From NCBI RefSeq assembly GCF_002234675.1, contig NC_019866.2, positions 8,213,261-8,277,260 of the forward strand: 64,000 nt of DNA, in the 5' to 3' direction. Made by a program: the position numbers and the translations under genes. Shown piece by piece: positions 57,501 to 60,500 of this stretch; the first letter of the stretch is position 1; every line of letters starts with the position of its first letter. The notes under the pieces were generated by a model. That model was not told where the DNA came from, ran no database searches, and worked only from the letters and a program-made list of their open reading frames with translations. The stretch is from Oryzias latipes. Its lineage: Eukaryota > Chordata > Actinopteri > Beloniformes > Adrianichthyidae.

Positions 57501-60500
57501 CCTGTATTTAAAAAAAAAAAAAAACAGGAACAGGATTTAGTGAATGCAAAACCATAAAGAAATTTGAGTTTTGTTTTTCTATATTGAAAAAGTGCAATTT
57601 TACACGAGATAAATAATTGTGTGCAAACATGGGAGGAGTTTACACATAATGAATCCAATCAGCAAACACCACTCTGACTTCAGTCCAAGTCAAACTGCAG
57701 AGGTAACTATTGTTCAGATTTTGCAACGACTGATTTCCATCACGTATCCTGGGGAGTTGACTCTTCTTGTAGGGTTTTTTTTTTTTTTTACTTCACATGT
57801 TGGTATGCAGATCGTTGCTAAACATTGTGTTTGTCTTAAACAAACAGCAGTCTATACATTTTTTTGGTGTGCACATTGAAAGTTTATGACCTAAATGACA
57901 AATTTAGAAACATGCAAGTTAACCTTCACAAAAAGGTCATTGGGAAAAAAGGTCACAGAGCTTGAGTCCATGTACTGCAGCCGTGATCGAACCATTGCAG
58001 AGCTAATATTTTACCGTGTGTTGCAAATCCTGAGTCGCTATAAAAGGAGTGTGAGTAGCTCTCGCTTGCATTATCCAATAGCAGATTACGCTTCTGCTCT
58101 GCTACTGCAAATGGGAGTTGTACGGATGCCGTTTCAAAGTTTGTGTCAAATTTACATCAAATCCTTGTTGTGAGGAGCAGAAAAAGAAATCCAAATAAGC
58201 CTAAATCTGCTCTGTCATCTGAGTGGGAGACAATCATCAAGATGATCTGGAGCTTCGGTCTGTTTTGCCTGGTGGCAGGTTTAGGAGCAGTCCATGCAGG
58301 TCCCATCAGAAGCCCGGGCAAGTTAGAGGAGAAAACTGCCCCTCAGGAAGAAGTCAACGTACTCATGTTTGGTGTCATACAACTGAGTGAATCGCTTAAC
58401 TATGTTTATGAAACCACCGGAGCTAAGATAGAAAGGATCAACCGGGCTTTGAAGAACCATGAAGGCACTCTCCAAAAGCTGGGGAAGCAGGCCGAGCTGG
58501 CTGCAGAGGTGGAGAAGCAGATGAAAGAAGTGATACAGTTACTGCAGGTAAGATAGCACTAAAATATGTCAACAGTGAATTCCTGTGTGAAGCTGTATTG
58601 TTGCAAGATAGAAGAAAAAAAACAGAGGAGAACAGAAAGGTTGAAGGCAGTGAGTGTAGGAAGTTTCCATCAGAGTGAACTTCTGCAGACATAACAAGGC
58701 ACCTCTTCTGTGACTCCAAAAACTGTCCGCATGACACCCTGTTCTTACTGATAACACCTCAATCCAACTGCGTTCTTTTGAAAATATTAATGATTCCATT
58801 CTTAATATAAAGAGACAGATCATAATAATAAAGGTGAATGTATTTTTGACAGGTCCAGATGTACCAGGACCAAGCCCAGACCCAGAAGGCTAAAGAGCAG
58901 CTGAACAGCTTACAAAGAGACGAGGAAGAATTAAAGACCAAAGTACAGAGGCTGGAGATGTTCATCAACAATCACGCACCAACCAGCATCAAGGAGCTGC
59001 AGGTAACGGAAAGCTGAAGCTCTCCAAGTCCCCATCGTGAGAACTGTGAAGAGCAGCCACTGAATAACTGTATTCCTTTAGGAGAGAGCACATATGCACT
59101 CCAACATGCTGAAAGGTTTACAGCTCCTAAACCAAATGCATAAAGAAAACATCGATACTCAAAATGAGCAGCTCTCCAAACTGGAGACCATGGTGAGATG
59201 TGTTTAAGATCCCAAAAGTTAACAGAAAATTAGGACTTCTTTTTCTTTTACTAATTTTACTTTTGTACATCTTCTTTGCAGAGTGGAGTTGTGCAGGAAT
59301 CCTAAATGGTTTCACAAAGTCACCGCTGCTCTGAAAGAGAAACGTCTGATTTAATGTCAGATCCCTGACGTCACTCCAGTCACTTCCAAACCTTTTTGTT
59401 TTGAGGGCTAGAAATGCTTTCTGTTAGAATCCAATATTCATTTCTTGCGCATTTCTTGTGTGGCTCTTGTTTTTTTTCTTTTTCTTAATATATTATAACT
59501 TAACCCTTTTCAAGATTTTTTTTAAGATATGTTAAATTATTAAAAGATTTTGTCTCAAAAAATATTGTCTGGTCTTTCTTTACACATACTCAAAAAGCAC
59601 AATTTTTTTTTTTAAGTCAAAGCTTTTCAAAATGTAAACAACGTTTTATAAATAAGCACAAAAAAACTGCTAATAGGGTAAGAAAATGGGTTTACCAAGA
59701 ATTTTTATTTTAAGAAGAAAATTCTAGTCACCAAGACATGTTTTCTTAAACTAAGATTATTTTTTTAATTTGCTATTAAAAATTTTCTTGATAAGATTAT
59801 TTTTCTTGCAAAACAAAATAAGAATATTTTTTTGGAACAAGGAAATTAGTTTCTTAAGATTCTATTTTTGCAGTGCAAATGCGCATGGTTTATATTTAAT
59901 GAACAACATGTTATAATTTAAGTTAGAATTGAATAATTTCTATTTCCAGAAAATAAAAAATAGTCTGCCTCCGTCCAAAATCAATAGGCGTACATGTGTT
60001 GGCTCACGCGCCCAGAGAGTGGATGGATGTTTGTTTTTGCGGGTCAGGTTACAGATTGTGCGTGCGTGCACCACTGAGCATGCAGTGCTCACCTGTAGGT
60101 GGTGTGTGGCGTGTAGACGTATCGAGCAGGGAACTCCAGCACCTCTTTGGTGGGACGCACACGTGGATCTGGATAAGGTTTCACGTGAAGCAGCTCCGGT
60201 GACAGACAGTAATGAGGAGAGTCCGGCGCTGGAGAAATGTCGATTTTCAGCTTAGCTGAGGGAGAAACAAACGCTTCATAAACAACCCACAACCAAAAAG
60301 CTTTTCAGTTTTTACATCATCCGAATGTGACGACATGTTTACCTGTCACGGGCCTCAGCCGTCGCAGAACAGAGGACGGTCTGCGCATATCTGCCAGAAA
60401 CTTATACAGATCTTCATCACTAAGTCGATCTCCTTCCTGTTTATGCACAAACAGAAGCAGAGTTAGTGCACACTTTCTTCACCTTTTGTGATTAAACTTG

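Follow-up and report, generated by a model that had tools for sequence, protein, structure and literature searches.

A 64,000-nucleotide stretch of the Oryzias latipes genome (hereafter, the window) contains a four-exon gene, nested antisense in an intron of dock6, that is very probably the teleost orthologue of ANGPTL8, a regulator of blood fat in mammals. This assignment is based on the host gene, the strand, the intron number, the neighbouring genes, the lack of a fibrinogen domain, the exon layout, and the best match between spliced proteins. An intact-looking teleost ANGPTL8 is of interest because the published literature holds such a gene to be absent. In the passages that bear on the question, a survey that included ten teleost genomes, medaka among them, placed ANGPTL8 only in mammals and described its flanking genes as conserved (Costa 2017, PMC5237311). 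Similar statements, that the gene is confined to mammals or is missing in fish or lower vertebrates, stand in passages of Tseng 2014 (PMC4284785) and of a 2023 paper on pig, and a passage of JCI Insight 2024 speculates from this absence on lipase turnover in lower vertebrates. Among the titles listed in our literature searches, none was on a fish ANGPTL8, and an automatic annotation of the gene may exist.

Similarity searches may have missed the fish gene because its coding sequence is broken up and short, with an identity of only about one quarter. An orthologue in the same intron dates ANGPTL8 to before the split between ray-finned fish and tetrapods, and makes the role of ANGPTL8 testable in a small, genetically easy animal.

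Structure of the gene and its host intron

The gene spans positions 58242-59305 on the + strand and consists of four phase-0 exons with GT-AG boundaries at all three introns (Table 1). Each exon length is divisible by three, and the exons together encode 196 residues (102 + 50 + 37 + 7). The first-pass annotation, which had worked from the letters and their open reading frames, had described four phase-0 exons, 196 residues and no fibrinogen domain, and the gene proved to be so built, with the start and end exactly as first placed.

Table 1. Features of the nested locus, its host intron and the adjoining gene (positions in the window)
Feature	Position	Strand	Description
Possible TATA box TATAAAAGG	58039..58047	+	about 200 bases 5' of the ATG; sole copy in the window
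angptl8 coding exon 1	58242..58547	+	102 aa; signal-peptide-like start, lipase-motif region, first part of the coiled coil
angptl8 coding exon 2	58853..59002	+	50 aa, coiled coil; the preceding intron has no counterpart in C4 angptl3
angptl8 coding exon 3	59082..59192	+	37 aa; exon 2 of C4 angptl3 has the same length, phase and aligned place
angptl8 coding exon 4	59282..59305	+	7 aa and TAA; C4 angptl3 runs on from here towards the fibrinogen domain
dock6 exon 14	60093..60256	-	upstream flank of the host intron; ends in YTPHTTY plus two bases of the codon that follows; high end approximate
dock6 intron 14	57502..60092	-	hosts the nested angptl8
dock6 exon 15	57384..57501	-	downstream flank; starts with NLLYVYPQ after the split codon; DOCK-C2 domain
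kank2 (part)	31683..35767	-	KN motif and ankyrin repeats; adjoins dock6; span of the scanned open reading frames, approximate

The N-terminus, judged by eye, resembles a signal peptide, with a hydrophobic start and a VHA-G site. The first-pass annotation had also named a coiled coil, and the remainder of the protein has a strong coiled-coil-like hydrophobic periodicity of 3.4-3.6 with a power of 107.5, a value reached by none of 1,000 shuffles; the periodicity of angptl3 was likewise reached by none of 1,000 and that of a provisional human ANGPTL8 sequence by 15 of 1,000. The product has one cysteine (residue 9) and no N-glycosylation site. The sequence TATAAAAGG has a chance expectation of 0.65 matches per window, and only its place and strand favour a TATA-like role. 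Between this element and the angptl8 ATG, an upstream open frame of 20 codons (58111-58173, +) was seen by eye, out of frame with angptl8.

The window and the 59 kb beyond it yielded no fibrinogen-domain exon; a single 17-residue scrap (E 0.086) was taken as noise. A Pfam scan of the 196-residue protein gave no Fibrinogen_C, and its coiled-coil match to Fib_alpha (E 0.012) fell below the cut-off of that model. Scans of the protein against Pfam, NCBIfam and the Protein Data Bank returned weak matches only, which we read as coiled-coil noise; no ANGPTL8 model was among the Pfam matches and no ANGPTL chain among those from the Protein Data Bank. The provisional human ANGPTL8 sequence behaved in the same way against the Protein Data Bank, with weak coiled-coil noise and no ANGPTL chain.

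Fourteen dock6 exons lie upstream on the - strand when exon 1, which falls just beyond the window, and a short exon 5 are counted, and the host intron is therefore number 14; this count was built on homology to dock7, with some exon ends unpinned and a tiny missed exon possible. Human ANGPTL8 is described as lying within DOCK6 intron 14 in the opposite direction (PMC5592946). The fish gene, on the + strand between - strand dock exons, is antisense to dock6.

The neighbour of dock6 was identified as kank2 by one ankyrin piece (KANK2 104 bits, KANK1 94, KANK3 78), and another piece did not tell KANK1 from KANK2. On the other side of dock6 are an ELAV-like gene, for which HuC (188.1 bits) and HuD (186.9 bits) are almost level, and a presumed PDE4-like gene, named from its letters. 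The exon strands, the kank2 scores and the gene order thus agree with the initial description of a gene antisense inside a dock6 intron with kank2 adjacent. ANKRD25, which appears in the literature on this region, we take to be the older name of KANK2. Published accounts give nprl3, kank2, dock6 and elavl3, in this order, downstream of fish aanat2 (PMC4730296), and, next to the globin cluster of cod, ANKRD25, DOCK6 and HuC (PMC2975663), while a figure legend on the salmon globin genes names DOCK6 as well as DOCK7 nearby (PMC3091688).

The letters of the host itself fit the two DOCK genes equally. Over one 133-residue stretch, 101 residues match a provisional DOCK6 sequence and 102 a provisional DOCK7 sequence; at the 39 columns where these two differ, the window host agrees with DOCK6 at 15 and with DOCK7 at 16, compared with 3 and 32 for the C4 locus. 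A genome search, in which only the best candidates were scored, gave one dock-type locus each on C8, which holds the window (C8:8213261-8277260), on C4 and on C9. The reading of the host as a second dock7 was rejected on the basis of the kank2 neighbour, the published fish gene order and the lack of a fourth dock-type locus among the candidates scored.

Elsewhere in the window, globin genes occupy positions 5776-24692 on both strands (all four scanned open reading frames match Globin), and the cluster adjoins kank2 and dock6, an arrangement also reported in other fish. Inside it lies a Ty3-type retrotransposon (9141-13613, +) with a 1,491-residue open frame matching capsid, protease, reverse transcriptase, RNase H, integrase and chromodomain. 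Two near-identical open frames about 3.7 kb apart (22854-23162 and 26552-26860) resemble, by eye, duplicated globin exons read on the reverse strand.

Protein kinship and the sister nest in dock7

To place the protein among its relatives, we used provisional letters for the human proteins. Those of ANGPTL8 were checked only by the length of 198 residues and the published variant positions Arg59 and Gln121, and no paper containing any of five stretches of them was found; those of ANGPTL4 have His46, Gln50 and Gln53 at the published places. In Smith-Waterman comparisons of the window protein with seven spliced relatives, provisional human ANGPTL8 scored highest (144), followed by angptl3b (129), angptl4b (117), angptl3a (109), provisional human ANGPTL3 (105), provisional human ANGPTL4 (92) and angptl4a (88). 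In each of the seven comparisons, the observed score lay above those of all 400 heptad-preserving shuffles. The angptl3b row was short of one residue at the start of exon 2, both here and in the tree. Identity to provisional human ANGPTL8 is 24-28 percent. Twelve residues are common only to the window protein and provisional human ANGPTL8, including the N, V, Y and T of LN-VY-TT, and the control counts for the six other rows are 8, 3, 4, 5, 4 and 4.

A tree of eight sequences grouped the window protein with ANGPTL8 at 98/98, and placing it instead with angptl3b, the three angptl3 rows or the three angptl4 rows was disfavoured, with AU p values of 0.026, 0.048 and 0.026, respectively. The branch of the window protein is very long (5.98), and long-branch pull towards ANGPTL8 is possible; therefore, the tree alone is no proof. 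When provisional human ANGPTL8 was searched against the unspliced genome, the window locus came third of five (25.7 bits), behind loci read as angptl3b (32.8 bits) and angptl4b (31.9 bits), and this rank may be the reason why the gene was missed. The earlier assignment to ANGPTL8 thus stands for the spliced protein scores, among which no better match to ANGPTL3 appeared, and for the tree, but not for the unspliced genome search, which ranks two other loci higher.

The genome holds two angptl3-type genes, on C4 and C17, and two angptl4-type genes. The C4 angptl3 lies antisense in dock7, between dock exons ending in NTTYR and starting with NLLYVNPQ, in an intron homologous to the dock6 intron that carries angptl8. 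Its fibrinogen exons match human ANGPTL3 best (124 bits; next best, 85). Introns 2 and 3 of angptl8 correspond to introns 1 and 2 of C4 angptl3 in aligned column and phase, and intron 1 of angptl8 is extra relative to that gene; the 37-residue exon recurs in C4 angptl3 and in angptl4b on C17. At the C9 dock locus, the homologous intron measures about 1 kb and gave no Angptl match.

The second angptl3-type gene encodes a coiled coil on the - strand (C17:16145651 down to 16144850). No fibrinogen-domain exon was found in the surrounding 29.7 kb (C17:16126000-16155700), nor any of the three dock exons queried there, and this gene may be a coiled-coil-only duplicate as well. Near the C17 angptl4 copy, fibrinogen exons are present. 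Around the C4 angptl4-type gene (C4:13590000-13599900), none was found in 9.9 kb, a stretch that is perhaps too short.

The window gene is clearly akin to angptl3, and its exon 3 has the size and phase of angptl3 exon 2. Together with the C17 angptl3-type gene, for which the 29.7 kb covered likewise gave no fibrinogen exon, these features would also fit a truncated copy of angptl3, such as a fish-specific duplicate without fibrinogen exons, in which case the window gene would be a stray Angptl3 coiled coil and not ANGPTL8. However, the window gene adjoins kank2 in dock6 rather than lying in dock7, no fourth dock-type locus emerged from the genome search, both angptl3-type genes sit elsewhere, and the AU values disfavour a grouping with angptl3b or the angptl3 rows. 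We consider a truncated angptl3 copy quite improbable.

Proposed origin and predicted role of the dock6-nested gene

Orthology to ANGPTL8 would be explained by an old duplication. In an early vertebrate, a DOCK gene carrying an antisense Angptl gene within an intron was probably duplicated together with it, yielding dock7 with angptl3 and dock6 with angptl8; the dock6-nested copy would then have shed the fibrinogen domain and evolved rapidly. The idea of a block duplication is not new, being reported from Quagliarini and colleagues in a passage of PMC4172915. The first-pass annotation had pointed to an origin before the fish/tetrapod split, a date that an orthologue in the same intron supports.

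One published survey, in the part concerned, saw ANGPTL8 only in mammals among the vertebrates that it checked, as might be expected if the fish gene and mammalian ANGPTL8 were independent insertions of an ANGPTL3-like copy into dock6. Against such separate events, the host, the intron number and the antisense strand are all the same, the homologous dock7 intron hosts angptl3 in the same genome, and the introns are kept, which argues against a processed copy; the coincidence would be extremely unlikely.

Three residues of ANGPTL4, His46, Gln50 and Gln53, are reported to be important for lipase regulation (PMC5237311). In an alignment to provisional ANGPTL4, their equivalents in the window protein are F43, Q47 and E50, so that one of the three is kept; provisional human ANGPTL8 retains all three. 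The replacement of two motif residues, like the very long branch, could mark a gene that shares the old dock6 nest with the mammalian one and survives as a decaying or silent relic without protein function. Such a relic is unlikely, although less so than the alternatives above, in view of the 196 codons open across four exons, the intact splice sites, the strongly kept periodicity and the TATA-like element in place.

If the teleost orthologue works as in mammals, its product would be transcribed and, given the signal-peptide-like start, secreted. The mammalian ANGPTL3/8 complex inhibits lipoprotein lipase after refeeding (JCI Insight 2024), and a potential partner is encoded in the genome, namely angptl3 with a coiled coil and fibrinogen exons. 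The fish product might pair with Angptl3 through the coiled coil and thereby shift lipoprotein lipase activity after feeding; we lean slightly towards such a partner role. Because two of the three lipase-motif residues are replaced, fish angptl8 would more likely change Angptl3 than block lipase directly.

As a whole, the locus is probably best explained as a teleost ANGPTL8 orthologue that arose from the DOCK-Angptl block duplication and is predicted to partner Angptl3. The broader proposition carries a somewhat better than even chance: ANGPTL8 would be an early-vertebrate sister copy of ANGPTL3 rather than a mammalian invention, and its fish form, with its own lipase-blocking residues mostly gone, would tune Angptl3. 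If this is true, arguments that lower vertebrates do without regulation of lipoprotein lipase by Angptl3/8 would be founded on the overlooking of a gene.

Comparison with known ANGPTL genes

The window gene shares with ANGPTL4 genes the N-terminal motif and the coiled coil, and the C17 angptl4 copy also has the 37-residue exon. It differs from ANGPTL4 in that fibrinogen exons lie near the C17 copy and in the lower match of ANGPTL4 to the window protein. ANGPTL4, moreover, is described in a 2014 review as not lying in an intron of another gene (PMC4172915).

With the angptl3 nested in dock7 on C4, the window gene has in common a homologous nest intron, the antisense orientation, the coiled-coil family, and introns 2 and 3 at matching columns. 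In contrast, the C4 gene has fibrinogen exons, a dock7 host, no counterpart of intron 1 and a lower match to the window protein. Both features by which membership in ANGPTL3 would be recognized, the fibrinogen domain and the dock7 host, are lacking from the window gene.

Human ANGPTL8 has 198 residues and four exons (PMC4284785). The fish protein is only about 24-28 percent identical to it, and in the fish lipase motif H is replaced by F and the second Q by E, whereas provisional human ANGPTL8 keeps both. The human variant Arg59Trp has been placed in exon 2 (PMC5592946); taken literally, this corresponds to a human intron that is absent from the fish gene, in which exon 1 comprises 102 codons. 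In several features, the window gene resembles mammalian ANGPTL8 (also betatrophin, lipasin or C19orf80): it lies antisense in DOCK6 intron 14 with KANK2 adjoining DOCK6, has four exons, encodes 196 residues compared with 198, is free of a fibrinogen domain, and finds its best spliced protein match in ANGPTL8.
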